Positions 42,839 through 47,381 of a DNA stretch of 64,000 bases are shown here, piece by piece; the stretch's first letter is position 1; each line of letters begins with the position of its first letter. Below the pieces are notes generated by a model, which searched no databases, was not told the origin of the DNA, and saw nothing but the letters and a program-made list of their open reading frames with translations. The position numbers were made by a program, and so were the translations under genes. Origin of the DNA: Candidatus Thiodiazotropha endoloripes (GTDB lineage Bacteria; Pseudomonadota; Gammaproteobacteria; Chromatiales; Chromatiaceae); the NCBI RefSeq assembly GCF_001708965.1, contig NZ_LVJW01000006.1, forward strand, positions 1,116,001 to 1,180,000, given 5' to 3'.

Positions 42839-43828
42839 TTAATCAAAAGGCTTCGGTGCCGGAGTATTGTCTGTTGAAGGTGGCAGAATCGGCATCATGA
42901 AGGATGGCTGATCCCCGGTCAGGGTCTTGAGAAAGGCCACGATCTGCCCGTTCTCCTCATCTGTGAACTTGCGCCCCAGTTGCAGCCTGCCCATCACATC
43001 GACGGCTTCGGTCAGGGTTTGGGCTTCACCATCATGGAAGTAGGGGTAGGTCATCTCCACATTTCTCAAAGTGGGTACTTTGAATTTGAAGCGGTCCGCA
43101 TCCTTGCCGGTCACCGCACTCAGACCTTCCGCCTTGCTATCGGTCTTATAGGCCTCGACCAGACCCATCTTCTGAAAAGAGTTGCCACCGACCGCTTCAC
43201 CGTTATGGCAGGCGGTACAGCCGCTCTCCTTGAACAGCTTGTAGCCTTTCAGCTCCTCACCACTCAGGGCAGCCTTGTCACCCAGCAACCACTTGTCAAA
43301 ATCCGAGTTGGGGGTCACCAGGGTCTTCTCAAACTCGGCAATCGCCTGGGTCACCTCATCGATGGTGATTTTATCCACACCAAATACCTTCTTGAACTCC
43401 ATCACGTATTCGGGGATCGATTCCAGCACTTCAACCGCCAGGGTATGGCTTGCGGCCATCTCGCCCGGATTGGCGATCGGACCACCGGCTTGTGCTTTCA
43501 GGTCTGCAGCCCGGCCATCCCAGAACTGAGCCACATTCAGGCTGGAGTTCAGGACGGTAGGCGCGTTGATCGGACCCTGCTGCCAATTATGACCGATCGA
43601 GGTTTTAAGGTTATCGGTGCCCCCCATGCTCAGGTTGTGGCATGAATTACACGAAATAAAGCCGGATTTGGAGAGACGAGGGTCAAAATAGAGTTTCTTA
43701 CCCAACTCAACCTGCCCCAGATTAATGCTCTGAACAGGTTTAATCGGTTTGATGGGTTCTTCCGCTGCCATAGCCTGGCCTGAAATACCTAGCAGCACTG
43801 TTGCGATCAGAGAAATTTTAAAGTTCAT
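42839..43828 (-). CDS. Di-haem cytochrome c peroxidase
   Basis: 329 residues with a signal peptide (cleaved about 22), periplasmic. Two haem sites are present: CNSCH (60-64) and CTACH near 208. It reduces hydrogen peroxide with electrons from small cytochromes c; MauG-type proteins are less likely because length and layout fit classical CcpA. The promoter region carries an FNR-like box and an overlapping Irr-like palindrome (see separate entries), so expression is probably low-oxygen induced and repressed by the adjacent Fur-family regulator. Confidence 0.92.
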   Translation of the reverse strand: MNFKISLIATVLLGISGQAMAAEEPIKPIKPVQSINLGQVELGKKLYFDPRLSKSGFISCNSCHNLSMGGTDNLKTSIGHNWQQGPINAPTVLNSSLNVAQFWDGRAADLKAQAGGPIANPGEMAASHTLAVEVLESIPEYVMEFKKVFGVDKITIDEVTQAIAEFEKTLVTPNSDFDKWLLGDKAALSGEELKGYKLFKESGCTACHNGEAVGGNSFQKMGLVEAYKTDSKAEGLSAVTGKDADRFKFKVPTLRNVEMTYPYFHDGEAQTLTEAVDVMGRLQLGRKFTDEENGQIVAFLKTLTGDQPSFMMPILPPSTDNTPAPKPFD

Positions 43829-44023
43829 GTCCTTTACCTGTAAGTTTCTCGAAGACTGGAACCATCCTCATGGAATAACTGACTTAATCCGCCTGCTGCT
43901 CAACTCGGGCAGCTGCAGGCCATTTGGGAACACATTCGCTTTAATTATTTTCGACTTGTATGGACTGTTTAGTTGAGACCGACTCCGGCCAACCACAAAA
44001 ACCACACAAGGTGGAGGTGAATA

Positions 44024-44038
44024 TTAGAATTAGTCTAA
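44024..44038 (-). promoter_or_regulatory. Irr/Fur-family operator at the peroxidase promoter
   Basis: TTAGAA-TTA-GTCTAA, a 15-bp palindrome with one mismatch, is the same motif as the one before rubrerythrin. Given the FNR-type promoter alongside, it would cover about -24 to -10, a repressor position. Resembles the alphaproteobacterial Irr box by memory. Confidence 0.6.
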
Positions 44039-44046
44039 ATTTAAAG

Positions 44047-44064
44047 CATTGACATAGGTCAATG
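44047..44064 (-). promoter_or_regulatory. FNR/CRP-type box of the peroxidase promoter
   Basis: CATTGAC-ATAG-GTCAATG is a perfect dyad containing TTGAC-N4-GTCAA, close to the FNR/ANR consensus TTGAT-N4-ATCAA. On the minus strand a TAATAT -10 box falls exactly where a class II promoter (box at -41.5) needs it, giving a start near 44014. Confidence 0.65.
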
Positions 44065-44129
44065 TTTCCAACTCAGTGAAAAGCGCAATTCACTGATCTG
44101 TCAAAAGAGGCTGGAAAGGGGCTAATCGC

Positions 44130-44564
44130 TCAGGGCTTGATGTTTTTAACCCGCACCACCAGATCGACAACATCCATGGATGTGCCTTCCGGCAGATCCT
44201 GTGCGATGAAGTGGGGTGCCAAACGATCTTTGATATCGATCAGGTCACCGGTATCCACATTGTAGAAGTGGTGGTGATGGCTGTTGTTTGAATCGTAGAA
44301 GGTACGCGAGGCATCGATAAAGATCTCCCTCACCAATCCCTTCCGGGCGAACAGTCCCAGGGTGTTGTAGACCGTCGCTTTTGATACCCGGCTGCCAGTC
44401 TGCTTGACCAGATCGAAGAGCTGATCCGCAGTGACATGCTGGTTACGCTCGAACAAGACATCCGCAATGATACGCCGCTGTTTGGTCAGATTGACCCCAT
44501 GAGCGATCATCATTTGCGTGATGTTTCGCTTTTGCGGAGGCTGTTGTTGTTCGTTCAAATTCAT
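44130..44564 (-). CDS. Fur-family regulator, Irr/PerR-like, cysteine-free
   Basis: 144 residues. A winged-helix DNA-binding domain has the recognition helix SKATVYNTLG (61-70). Four histidines at 96-99 (HHHHF) and a DTGDLIDI loop are the metal or haem-sensing region. There is no cysteine at all, so the CxxC structural zinc of Fur, Zur and PerR is missing, as in Irr-type members. It is divergent from rubrerythrin, with a palindromic site in between. The likely role is a peroxide-, haem- or iron-responsive repressor of rubrerythrin and cytochrome c peroxidase. Its 3' end is 300 nt from the peroxidase gene. Confidence 0.85.
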   Translation of the reverse strand: MNLNEQQQPPQKRNITQMMIAHGVNLTKQRRIIADVLFERNQHVTADQLFDLVKQTGSRVSKATVYNTLGLFARKGLVREIFIDASRTFYDSNNSHHHHFYNVDTGDLIDIKDRLAPHFIAQDLPEGTSMDVVDLVVRVKNIKP

Positions 44565-44750
44565 CCGCTGAGTATAAATTCAAACGGCTGATAATTCTAC
44601 AGCCGCATATTATTAACATGTTTTACATAGGGTTATATTCTGCGCTGACCCATAGGCCAGAATCCAGTAAGCGCGTTCCATCTCAAAACAATTTCGTATT
44701 AGGCAAAAACTATCATTGCCATTGAAAAGACCATTCGCTTCCAATTATTT

Positions 44751-44765
44751 TTAGAACTATTCTAA
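44751..44765 (+). promoter_or_regulatory. Irr/Fur-family operator upstream of rubrerythrin
   Basis: TTAGAA-CTA-TTCTAA, a perfect 6+3+6 palindrome, 68 nt before the rubrerythrin ATG. A possible -35 TTGCCA lies at 44716-44721, so the palindrome would sit near the transcription start. Shared with the peroxidase promoter. Confidence 0.65.
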
Positions 44766-44833
44766 GCATCAGCGAAGAGCCTGCAGGGCTCAACGTGCAA
44801 TTCCACAATAACCATCATTTCGGAGAACCAGAT

Positions 44834-45250
44834 ATGGAACTCAAAGGTAGTAATACAGAGCAAAACCTGAAAGACGCTTTTGCCGGAGAATCCCAAGCCA
44901 ATCGTCGCTACCTCTACTTCGCTGCAAAAGCCGATGTAGAGGGTTACAACGATGTAGCAGCCCTGTTTCGTTCCACCGCTGAAGGTGAAACCGGCCATGC
45001 CCATGGTCATCTTGAGTATCTGGAGCAGTGTGGCGATCCTGCAACCGGTCTGCCCATCGGCCCTACTGGCGATAACCTGAAGGCCGCAGTCGCAGGTGAA
45101 ACCCACGAATACACTGACATGTATCCAGGCATGGCCAAAACTGCCCGTGATGAGGGTTTCGATGAAGTCGCAGACTGGTTCGAGACTCTGGCCAAGGCCG
45201 AGCGTTCTCATGCCAACCGTTACCAGAAAGCTCTGGACGAGCTGGACTAA
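44834..45250 (+). CDS. Rubrerythrin (di-iron domain only)
   Basis: 138 residues from the ATG at 44834, with GGAG upstream. The four-helix di-iron domain has both ExxH sets: EGETGHAH near 54-61 and AERSH near 125-129. It reduces hydrogen peroxide. The C-terminal rubredoxin domain of classical rubrerythrin is absent, so electrons must come from another protein. The Fe-S protein encoded 80 nt downstream is an obvious candidate, by inference. First gene of the rbr-FeS-sORF-DUF3501 cluster. Confidence 0.92.
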
Positions 45251-45330: not shown

Positions 45331-46674
45331 ATGGCAGCACCGACCGGTCAACGAGAAGGTAATCTGGAAGCCCCGACCCGGCATCCCATCGACTGGAAAA
45401 ATCCCGAATACTATAACGAACAGAGCCTAATGGAGGAGCTGGAACGGGTCTTCGATCTGTGCCATGGATGTCGACGCTGCGTCAGCCTATGTCAAAGCTT
45501 TCCCAGCCTGTTCGATCTGGTGGATGAATCGGAAACCATGGAGGTGGATGGTGTTGCCAAAGAGGATTACTGGCAGGTGGTGGATCACTGCTACCTGTGT
45601 GACCTCTGTTACATGACCAAATGTCCCTATGTGCCGCCTCACGAATGGAACATCGACTTTCCCCACCTAATGCTGCGAGCGAAAGCGGTGAAGTACAAAA
45701 AGGGCGACGTCAAACTGCGCGACCGACTACTCACCAGCACCGACAACCTGGGCAAACTGGCCGGCATTCCGGTTGTCTCCGGCGTGGTCAACCAATTCAA
45801 CAAAGCCAAGAATTTCCGTGAAATCCTGGATCACGCACTGGGCGTCCACCCCGAAGCGAAACTCCCAGAATTTCACAGCAAGCCACTACGTAAACGCCTG
45901 GCCGGAAAAGTTGCCATCGATGCTCAGGGCACCCCGGCGGGAACCACCAAAGGCAAAGTCGCCCTGTTCGGTACCTGTTACGGCAACTACAACGAACCCC
46001 ACGTGGGTGAGGACCTGGTGGCGGTATTCGAACACAACGACATTCCGGTAACCCTGGCGGAAAAAGAGCAGTGTTGCGGCATGCCCAAGCTCGAATTGGG
46101 CAATCTGGACGCGGTAGAGGCCGCCAAGGATGCGAATATTCCGGTACTGGCCAAACTGGTGGATCAGGGTTGGGATATCGTCGCACCGGTACCTTCCTGT
46201 GCACTGATGTTCAAACAGGAGCTGCCGCTGCTGTTTCCCGATGATCCTGCGGTCAAAAAAGTCGCCGATGCGGTTTTCGACATCTTCGAGTATCTGATGA
46301 TCAGACACAAATCGCAGCTATTGAAAACTGACTTCAAACAGGGCCTCGGCAAGGTGGCCTACCATGCCGCCTGCCACCAGCGGGTGCAGAATGTGGGAGC
46401 CAAGACAAAAGAGGTGCTTAGCCTGATCCCTGATACCCAGGTCACAGCCATCGAACGCTGTTCCGGCCATGATGGCACCTATGCCGTTAAAAGCGAGTTT
46501 CACAAACACGCCATGAAGATCGGCAAGCCGGTAGTCAACCGGGTAAAACAGGCGGAAGCCGACTGTTATGGCAGTGACTGCCCGATGGCGGGACACCATA
46601 TCGAAAATGGCCTTAAAGATGGCAGAGAACCACAACATCCGATCAGCCTGATGCGTCAGGCCTATGGTCTATAG
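45331..46674 (+). CDS. Heterodisulfide-reductase-like (Fe-S)-binding protein
   Basis: 447 residues, AGGAG before the ATG. Two ferredoxin-like cluster sets lie at C44, C47, C50, C54 and C87, C90, C93, C98. Two cysteine-rich CCG-type domains follow (EQCCGMP; then ACHQ ... ERCSGHDG, where Gly-Cys replaces the usual CCG). The layout is like GlpC/HdrD electron carriers. No membrane segment, so cytoplasmic. It probably passes electrons to rubrerythrin or to a reaction involving DUF3501; the partner is unproven. Confidence 0.85.
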   Translation: MAAPTGQREGNLEAPTRHPIDWKNPEYYNEQSLMEELERVFDLCHGCRRCVSLCQSFPSLFDLVDESETMEVDGVAKEDYWQVVDHCYLCDLCYMTKCPYVPPHEWNIDFPHLMLRAKAVKYKKGDVKLRDRLLTSTDNLGKLAGIPVVSGVVNQFNKAKNFREILDHALGVHPEAKLPEFHSKPLRKRLAGKVAIDAQGTPAGTTKGKVALFGTCYGNYNEPHVGEDLVAVFEHNDIPVTLAEKEQCCGMPKLELGNLDAVEAAKDANIPVLAKLVDQGWDIVAPVPSCALMFKQELPLLFPDDPAVKKVADAVFDIFEYLMIRHKSQLLKTDFKQGLGKVAYHAACHQRVQNVGAKTKEVLSLIPDTQVTAIERCSGHDGTYAVKSEFHKHAMKIGKPVVNRVKQAEADCYGSDCPMAGHHIENGLKDGREPQHPISLMRQAYGL

Positions 46675-46698: not shown

Positions 46699-46800
46699 AT
46701 GGCAAATGAAGGCTTTCGCAAGCCGCTAGATCTGCTTAGCGATGATACCCGTTTAAGGAAAATACCTTTGCACAAGATTGATTTCAGGAGCGCCTCATGA
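46699..46800 (+). CDS. 33-residue ORF coupled to DUF3501
   Basis: ATG with CGGAG 9 nt upstream, 33 codons, TGA overlapping the ATG of the next gene (ATGA at 46797-46800). The peptide starts MANEGFRKPLDLL and is charged and soluble, with no cysteine. The ribosome site and exact coupling argue that it is translated, either as a small protein of the cluster or as a leader that couples DUF3501 translation. Confidence 0.6.
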   Translation: MANEGFRKPLDLLSDDTRLRKIPLHKIDFRSAS

Positions 46801-47381
46801 CCCAGCTTTCCCATGAAGACCTCTACAGCCTTGAAGAGTATTCCCGTATTCGCCAGGAGTTCAGGACCCGCGTCATAGACCACAAAAAAAGCCGTAGATT
46901 ACCGATCGGACCTCACGCCGCGCTCTATTTCGAGGATGAGCTGACGATGCAGTATCAGATTCAGGAGATGTTGCGCATCGAGCGTATATTTGAACACGAT
47001 GGCATCCAGGATGAACTGGATGTCTACAATCCTCTGATCCCCGACGGCACCAACTGGAAGGCCACATTCATGATGGAGTATGACGATGTGGAAGAGCGTA
47101 AACAGGCGCTGGCAAAACTGATTGGTATCGAAAACGCTATCTGGTTTGCGGTTGAAGGCCATGAAAAGATCCGCCCGATTGCCAATGAGGATCTTGAACG
47201 CACAACGGAAGATAAAACTTCAGCTGTCCACTTCATCCGTTTCGAATTGACCGCCGCGATGATCGAGAGCCTGAAAAACGGCGCCAAGCTATCCGCCGGA
47301 ATCGATCATGCAGAGTACAACTACACGATTGACGGCTTGGACTCAGCTGTTAAAAACTCACTAATCAGTGACCTAAGCTGA
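46797..47381 (+). CDS. DUF3501 family protein
   Basis: 194 residues. The N-terminus (LYSLEEYSRIRQEFRTRVIDHKK) and the glycine-poor mixed alpha/beta body match the DUF3501 family, which is often found beside rubrerythrin and this Fe-S protein. No catalytic motif or membrane helix. The function is unknown; cluster membership suggests peroxide detoxification or electron supply. It overlaps the 33-codon ORF by 4 nt. Confidence 0.85.
   Translation: MTQLSHEDLYSLEEYSRIRQEFRTRVIDHKKSRRLPIGPHAALYFEDELTMQYQIQEMLRIERIFEHDGIQDELDVYNPLIPDGTNWKATFMMEYDDVEERKQALAKLIGIENAIWFAVEGHEKIRPIANEDLERTTEDKTSAVHFIRFELTAAMIESLKNGAKLSAGIDHAEYNYTIDGLDSAVKNSLISDLS

Follow-up and report, generated by a model that had tools for sequence, protein, structure and literature searches.

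The nearest described counterparts of the system reported here are found among the Irr and PerR proteins. Irr is almost confined to Alphaproteobacteria, with few exceptions, according to a 2020 review (PMC7762939). The Irr protein of Rhodobacter sphaeroides (RSP_3179) has only two predicted boxes, located before mbfA, which encodes a rubrerythrin-type protein, and before ccpA, which encodes a cytochrome c peroxidase; it binds both in vitro, and manganese favours the complexes (PMC3413700). For mbfA of Sinorhizobium meliloti, mutating TTCTAA of the ICE element relieves repression (PMC7540006), and sequences like the Irr box are found upstream of leptospiral perRA, Irr and PerR sharing Asp and Asn signatures (PMC8638967). 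Here we describe a locus in a 64,000-nucleotide stretch of DNA from Candidatus Thiodiazotropha endoloripes (the whole of which is called the window), where a gene for a cysteine-free Fur-family regulator lies between a dihaem cytochrome c peroxidase gene and a rubrerythrin (rbr) operon, and a palindromic box precedes each of these two targets.

The gene order is peroxidase (minus strand), regulator (minus strand) and then the rbr-RFO-DUF3501 operon (plus strand). The putative regulon is as minimal as that of R. sphaeroides Irr, pairing a rubrerythrin-type protein with a cytochrome c peroxidase, but it includes the rbr-RFO-DUF3501 operon in place of the membrane-bound mbfA, and the box before rbr in the class mostly reads TTAGAC..GTCTAA. 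The operon corresponds to the aerobic-type rubrerythrin cluster of Cardenas 2016, which is made up of the same set of genes (PMC5114695). The main text of that paper has 0 occurrences of 'PerR' and of 'transcriptional regulator', so that no regulator appears to be proposed there, and a paper on the rubrerythrin cluster of Acidihalobacter contains no PerR, Fur or Irr (PMC7760498). A literature search of titles and the beginnings of abstracts, which did not cover subscription papers and regulon databases, gave no Irr-type regulator or this box in Gammaproteobacteria. The kind of regulator is already known; not found described in the literature searched were its occurrence in this class, the rbr-RFO-DUF3501 target, the box variant with TTAGAC and how widely the association extends. 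On the evidence below, we estimate the probability that regulator, box and targets form one regulatory circuit, whichever signal it answers to, at roughly 0.75.

Boxes in the host genome, the genus and the class

The first-pass annotation of this DNA had noticed two palindromes, at 44751-44765 and 44024-44038, and between them a Fur-family gene with an HHHHF stretch and no cysteine. Both palindromes are present there, and the open reading frame (ORF) at 44130-44564 on the minus strand encodes 0 Cys and reads SHHHHF in the sensor stretch. Both boxes fit TTAGAM-N3-KTCTAA exactly, a consensus learned from relatives, and box 2 is one base off TTAGAA-N3-TTCTAA. In the genome of 4,462,668 bases, exact TTAGAM-N3-KTCTAA was found only at boxes 1 and 2, 727 bp apart around the regulator gene, and perfect TTAGAA-N3-TTCTAA only at the rbr site (box 1). 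When one mismatch was allowed, the consensus gave 9 sites versus 75 for the reversed pattern, and TTAGAA-N3-TTCTAA gave 4 versus 9. The 15 sites found in the window at up to three mismatches, versus 12.6 expected, are unremarkable; this count and the 4 versus 9 in the genome indicate that loose matches to the box are background. The genome scan proposed by the first-pass annotation thus returned two exact sites, both at this locus, and its near-matches stayed at or below the reversed control. No ferritin, siderophore or haem-synthesis gene was recognised by eye at the seven 1-mismatch sites of the host genome, and a global iron regulon in this host is accordingly unsupported.

The regulator is present in 21 of the 22 genomes of the genus, and in the sole genome that lacks it (G011) the aerobic rubrerythrin was likewise not found. 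The peroxidase-side box is kept at all 21 regulator loci of the genus and the rbr-side box at 17 of 20, with up to one mismatch allowed; at L036 the contig stops short of the rbr-side box, and the rbr of that genome, located on another contig, has an exact box. Across nine representatives, no other 15-base window in the intergenic region upstream of the peroxidase is as conserved as the box (0.91 versus 0.56 outside, rank 1 of 290). The rbr-side box scored 0.93 versus 0.66 outside and ranked 9 of 255, the top windows being located at the ribosome-binding site.

A similar association was observed across the class, as delimited by GTDB, where Gammaproteobacteria include the former Betaproteobacteria. 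The sample consisted of 370 genomes, each at least 90% complete, and the regulator was scored as present at E <= 1e-25, a cut-off picked after a gap between 9.6e-27 and 7.1e-18 had been seen; the genome lists for the association test and for the per-family tally were transcribed by hand. By this measure the regulator subfamily is present in 160 of the 370 genomes. The exact 17-base form TTTAGAM-N3-KTCTAAA occurs in 92 genomes, namely 81 of 160 with the regulator versus 11 of 210 without it (odds ratio 18.5, p 1e-24), and the reversed pattern showed no such link (15/160 versus 30/210). Reading the first 30 places with an exact box, we found 21 upstream of rubrerythrin, two upstream of other CCP-like dihaem peroxidases, two upstream of katG and five upstream of none of these. 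Twelve further places comprised three upstream of rubrerythrin, one upstream of RFO, one upstream of a CCP-like gene, one close to katG, one about 530 bp from katG and five upstream of none of these genes. The first-pass annotation had envisaged a local regulon for peroxide and iron, controlled by a repressor of the Irr or PerR type; at the host locus this is supported by the genome-unique boxes and by the tree grouping and metal site described below. It is not confined to that locus, since the pairing was found in many families of the class; conservation among relatives with the regulator likewise extends to class-wide tracking, with exceptions in both directions.

We then examined the promoters of individual targets. 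For rbr, 350 bp upstream of the gene were scanned for the 15-mer in 41 of the 52 regulator-positive genomes without an exact 17-mer and in 36 of 45 regulator-negative genomes, nine of the latter having no listed place. The other 11 positives were G000 and G009, which belong to the genus, G116, G225 and G255, which were read separately and are all boxed, and G137, G215, G224, G326, G357 (no listed place) and G040, which were left out. In the regulator-positive set, the 15-mer was found at up to one mismatch in 36 and at up to two in 39 of the 41 genomes, and all the boxes but one are 14-126 bp before the start, the remaining one at 235. In the regulator-negative set, seven genomes have an exact box, and the other 29 show at least three mismatches. 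Addition of genomes from the host's own family (three positive and five negative, none boxed; G022 and G029 among them are <90% complete, and the boxed genus members G014 and G017 were left out) gave 36/44 versus 7/41 (p 1.5e-9). With one vote per family the result was 26/27 versus 7/26, by a hand tally made before the own-family additions, which include G023, G024 and G030. TTAGA is kept in 36 of 36 rbr sites, these being preselected at up to one mismatch. TTAGAA-N3-TTCTAA alone was rejected as the class box because it does not cover TTAGAC..GTCTAA, the form that prevails among the rbr sites of the class. A second arrangement was observed in G116 and G225 (one genus) and G255, where the regulator gene and DUF3501 lie side by side in convergent orientation and the rbr operon is boxed.

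Outside the genus, the regulator was found to adjoin this peroxidase at five loci (L099, L101, L104, Oceanospirillum sediminis L126 and Motiliproteus L131), and at all five a palindrome of the TTAGAC type separates the two genes, with 0 or 1 mismatch to the consensus. Among close orthologues of the peroxidase, the box at up to one mismatch precedes 5 of 6 in regulator-positive and 0 of 10 in regulator-negative genomes (p 0.0014), two of the five boxed ones being those of the host and a genus mate. The box was found at 11 of 59 katG places in regulator-positive versus 0 of 31 in negative genomes (p 0.014, 90 listed places), and two katG fragments outside these places gave an exact box in G191 (L326) and G243 (L194). 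With only 11 of 59 boxed, katG was rejected as a core target.

The regulator and its relatives

The predicted metal-ligand set of the regulator matches that of Bacillus subtilis PerR. H43, D91, H97, H99 and D110 align with the His-Asp-His-His-Asp site of the PerR structure 2fe3, where the ligands are H37, D85, H91, H93 and D104. All 107 relatives keep H43, H97, H99 and D110, and 106 of them keep D91. Both acidic ligands are Asp in the regulator, and Glu is found at both positions in Escherichia coli Fur; N67 in the recognition helix is likewise kept in 107/107 relatives and is Arg in E. coli Fur, PerR also having Asn in its DNA-reading helix. The HxH motif formed by H97 and H99 occurs in 107/107 relatives but is not diagnostic for Irr, because it is also part of the PerR metal site. 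Cysteine is absent from 60 of the 107 relatives and CxxC is found in one. The structural Zn(Cys)4 site of PerR is absent from the window protein with its 0 Cys, and PerR falls outside its group in the tree. The B. subtilis PerR box is TTATAATNATTATAA, and the box here, TTAGAM-N3-KTCTAA, differs from it in sequence.

With alphaproteobacterial Irr, the regulator shares the scarcity of cysteine, the lack of CxxC, HxH, the Asp-type metal site, the recognition-helix Asn and, as its putative site, a TTCTAA-type element. Unlike Irr, it has only 31-38% identity to six alphaproteobacterial proteins, is located outside their tree group and misses the Irr cut-offs: the best curated profile matches (NCBIfam) were IrrA with 111.4 bits (cut-off 150) and Irr with 110.4 bits (cut-off 170). 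For this reason the regulator was not filed as Irr. Of the Irr-box consensus quoted by the first-pass annotation, the part confirmed in print is TTCTAA, the functional half that was mutated in an ICE element (PMC7540006).

A tree was built from 33 gammaproteobacterial rows chosen from 108, six alphaproteobacterial Irr, Leptospira PerR, Fur, Zur, Mur and two classical PerR. One group with 100/99 support unites the 33 rows with the six Irr and Leptospira PerR and leaves out Fur, Zur, Mur and classical PerR. Within it, the six Irr form a 100/99 subgroup without gammaproteobacterial rows, which arises at an unresolved fork among the latter. Long branches were flagged by the tree program, the Leptospira row above all, and since this branch is very long the exact position of Leptospira PerR is unsure.

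An AlphaFold2 model of the regulator had a mean pLDDT of 84.5, and its top Foldseek match by E-value was 5NL9, PerRA of Leptospira interrogans (1.2e-10, TM 0.73). By TM-score, several Fur and Mur structures rank slightly above it (0.75-0.77; 0.77 for 5fd6). The best sequence match in the PDB was likewise 5NL9 (7e-21). PerRA resembles the regulator further in having no CxxC, in an HHHH sensor stretch and in the upstream sequences reported to be similar to Irr boxes, but the identity is 42% over 93 aligned residues, and PerRA has a large host-adaptation regulon in addition to its long branch. We read the regulator as an Irr/PerR-type protein that would work like Irr or PerR.

The nearest named relatives of the regulator are Candidatus Thiodiazotropha proteins, 97 and 96% identical. 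The host genome has a separate Fur gene and a Zur-like gene besides the window regulator. A canonical Fur identity was ruled out by Asp where Fur has Glu ligands and by the place of Fur elsewhere in the tree, and a Zur identity by a separate Zur gene beside znu-like genes (L048, by eye). A 52% identical regulator of this type is encoded on a contig labelled as a Halobacteria archaeon metagenome-assembled genome (L123), a label that is probably a binning error. In Ruegeria and Rhodobacter (L310, L311), irrA adjoins fabA.

The proposed circuit and its alternatives

In the circuit that we propose, the product of 44130-44564 would be a dimeric repressor of the cysteine-free Irr/PerR type. Loaded with metal, the dimer would occupy TTAGAM-N3-KTCTAA at both promoters and keep the rbr-RFO-DUF3501 operon and the dihaem peroxidase off as long as the signal is absent. 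Release would most likely be brought about by H2O2 oxidising a ligand histidine at the PerR-like iron site (H43, D91, H97, H99, D110), haem being a less likely cause, and would turn on peroxide removal in the cytoplasm by rubrerythrin and in the periplasm by the peroxidase. The same circuit of regulator, box and rubrerythrin may be widespread in the class, and some lineages would add other dihaem peroxidases or katG. Within the circuit, we give peroxide as the signal slightly less than an even chance.

Several observations weigh against this proposal. Both curated Irr cut-offs are missed by a protein that we place with Irr and PerR. An rbr box is found without the regulator in seven genomes (G045, G080, G112, G169, G208, G248 and G291), where a laxer search for the regulator gave nothing better than one weak match per genome to the Fur family, at about 40 bits. 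Conversely, G067 and G093 carry the regulator and have no rbr box, three genomes from the family of the host (G023, G024 and G030) likewise lack an rbr box and carry a regulator that is distant, at 44-47% identity, and the rbr-side box has diverged in three members of the genus (L028, L029 and L031). For the peroxidase, G150 has both genes and only a 2-mismatch site, and such a site also precedes 3 of 10 regulator-negative peroxidases. The box is absent from 48 of 59 katG genes, including the host's own (L381), and among the remaining boxed places read, ten adjoin none of the expected genes. Because the genomes are related, the p values overstate the association and are descriptive. As to the signal, the PerR-like ligands do not decide it because Irr has them too, and H2O2 given to R. 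sphaeroides raises mbfA about 9-fold and lowers ccpA about 5-fold (PMC3413700); as these responses oppose each other, a simple peroxide switch for both targets is disfavoured.

The signal may instead be iron or haem, as for Irr. During scarcity of iron or haem, the haem-free regulator would then bind the box, keeping the iron-rich rubrerythrin and the dihaem peroxidase off under iron shortage, and haem at HxH would release it. This is in keeping with IrrA and Irr being the best curated profile matches (111 and 110 bits), with the likeness of the box to the Irr box, with the invariant HxH and with the iron or haem required by both targets; R. sphaeroides provides a parallel (PMC3413700), and haem at HxH lowers the DNA affinity of Irr in Rhizobium leguminosarum (PMC7762939). 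However, the curated cut-offs of 150 and 170 bits are missed, the six Irr group by themselves with 100/99 support, and a haem regulatory motif is absent from the window regulator because it has no Cys. In addition, no ferritin, siderophore or haem-synthesis gene was recognised by eye at the boxed class sites read, among which several targets stayed unidentified. Within the proposed circuit, we consider this mode of sensing possible but doubtful.

The box may also belong to another transcription factor that accompanies the Fur-family gene in those members of the class that are aerobic and have rubrerythrin. The seven box-positive genomes without the regulator would fit this explanation, and regulator and rbr themselves co-occur, rbr being found in 121 of 160 regulator-positive versus 45 of 210 negative genomes. 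Nevertheless, the link between box and regulator persists inside rbr-bearing genomes (69/121 versus 6/45) as well as among the remaining genomes (12/39 versus 5/165; G333 was counted here as free of rbr, yet its box precedes an rbr cut by the contig end). The regulator gene itself is flanked by boxes or adjoins the boxed operon, and the form of the palindrome matches that reported for Irr and Leptospira PerRA, which belong to the same group; another factor is therefore improbable. That the palindromes are chance or leftover sequence is more improbable still: AT-rich palindromes do arise by chance and near-matches in the genome do not exceed the reversed control, but the genome-unique exact pair, its conservation and the class-wide link with a flat reversed control led us to reject this origin.

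We tentatively suggest, while regarding it as rather less than an even bet, that an unnamed, class-wide peroxide regulator of Gammaproteobacteria forms with alphaproteobacterial Irr and Leptospira PerRA an ancient cysteine-free group acting on TTAGA-type boxes. Haem sensing by Irr would then have arisen later, as a specialisation within Alphaproteobacteria, from a peroxide sensor that originally controlled rubrerythrin and cytochrome c peroxidase. This offers a testable route by which a haem sensor could derive from a peroxide sensor. A regulator type hardly described in this class, with a box that tracks it, is found in 160 of the 370 genomes sampled, and the aerobic rubrerythrin operon gains a candidate regulator.

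Promoter architecture and further boxed sites

The features of the locus are given in Table 1. The rubrerythrin start is most likely ATG 44834, and the distance of box 1 from rbr follows from that choice.

Table 1. Positions of the regulator, its putative targets and promoter elements in the window
Feature	Position	Strand	Remarks
Fur-family regulator, Irr/PerR type, 144 aa, 0 Cys	44130..44564	-	ORF, profile matches, tree, AlphaFold2 model
Box 1, TTAGAACTATTCTAA	44751..44765	.	68 bp upstream of rubrerythrin; divergent regulator-rubrerythrin region
Box 2, TTAGAATTAGTCTAA	44024..44038	.	195 bp upstream of dihaem peroxidase (start 43828); overlaps candidate -10
Rubrerythrin, aerobic type, 138 aa, without rubredoxin-like domain	44834..45250	+	ORF, profiles; context as in PMC5114695
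RFO, second gene of rubrerythrin operon	45331..46674	+	Profiles; cluster of PMC5114695
DUF3501 protein, third gene of conserved rubrerythrin operon	46797..47381	+	Profiles; PMC5114695
Dihaem cytochrome c peroxidase, CCP/MauG family, two CxxCH motifs	42839..43828	-	ORF, profiles
FNR-like palindrome TTGACCTATGTCAA	44049..44062	minus-strand reading	Centre 24.5 bp from box 2 centre
Candidate -10 hexamer TAATAT, peroxidase promoter	44021..44026	-	Overlaps box 2; suggested by sequence and position arithmetic
Candidate sigma-70 promoter of rubrerythrin, TTGAAA-18-TATTTT	44722..44751	+	Consensus match only; ends where box 1 begins

Inspection of the peroxidase-side region suggests a second input. The palindrome TTGACCTATGTCAA is the only exact FNR-like one within the window, and among nine representatives its conservation in this region is second to that of the box. 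The genus sequences, L099, L101, L104 and L126 carry a site of the form TTGAY-N4-RTCA(A/T/C), with 0 or 1 mismatch to TTGAY-N4-RTCAA, which is 18.5, 24.5 or 25.5 bp away from the centre of the box; L131, L334, L339, L340 and L336 have no such site at that spacing. An FNR-like site anywhere occurred in 5% of shuffled upstream sequences. If TAATAT is the -10 hexamer, the FNR-like site would be centred at -41.5, the usual activating place for FNR, and box 2 would span -24 to -10. By the same reasoning from position, box 1 would start at the end of the candidate rbr -10 and box 2 would lie over the peroxidase promoter, placements that suit a repressor. The FNR-like site at about -41.5 could thus add an oxygen-limitation input to the peroxidase and limit it to low oxygen. 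For Candidatus Thiodiazotropha, sulphur-oxidising symbionts of lucinid clams, this suggests how peroxide defence may be tied to oxygen limitation. Two overlapping boxes, offset by 6 bp, were observed in the peroxidase promoter at L030:2091-2111, and within the genus the FNR-like site is spaced from the box by 18.5 bp in some sequences and 24.5 bp in others, as though both registers could serve.

Some boxed sites lie outside the arrangement described above. An extra exact box between rubrerythrin and RFO, besides the one before rubrerythrin, was observed at L324:1 and L327:49 (G092 and G299). In the regulator-positive genomes G206 and G084, exact boxes (L317, L318 and L319) have no rubrerythrin, peroxidase or katG alongside, and the gene beside the one at L319 resembles a Crp-family regulator by eye. 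The distant regulator gene at L083, L085, L088 and L089 adjoins type IV pilin genes (fimT/pilV/pilW/pilX-like by eye), and at these loci there was no box at up to one mismatch and no rubrerythrin nearby.

Within the genus, two genomes share a box-like site located 5' of one and the same large gene (MSGENENNQLL / MAMNRENENNQLL), at L351 (own C6:14496) and L073:11439. Finally, in several genomes of the genus one or two Irr-like boxes are found between a gene of about 88-96 aa and an HDOD-like gene (by eye) at L004 (own C8:10352), L070-L073, L075 and L076, a site that is possibly a second regulon member within Thiodiazotropha.

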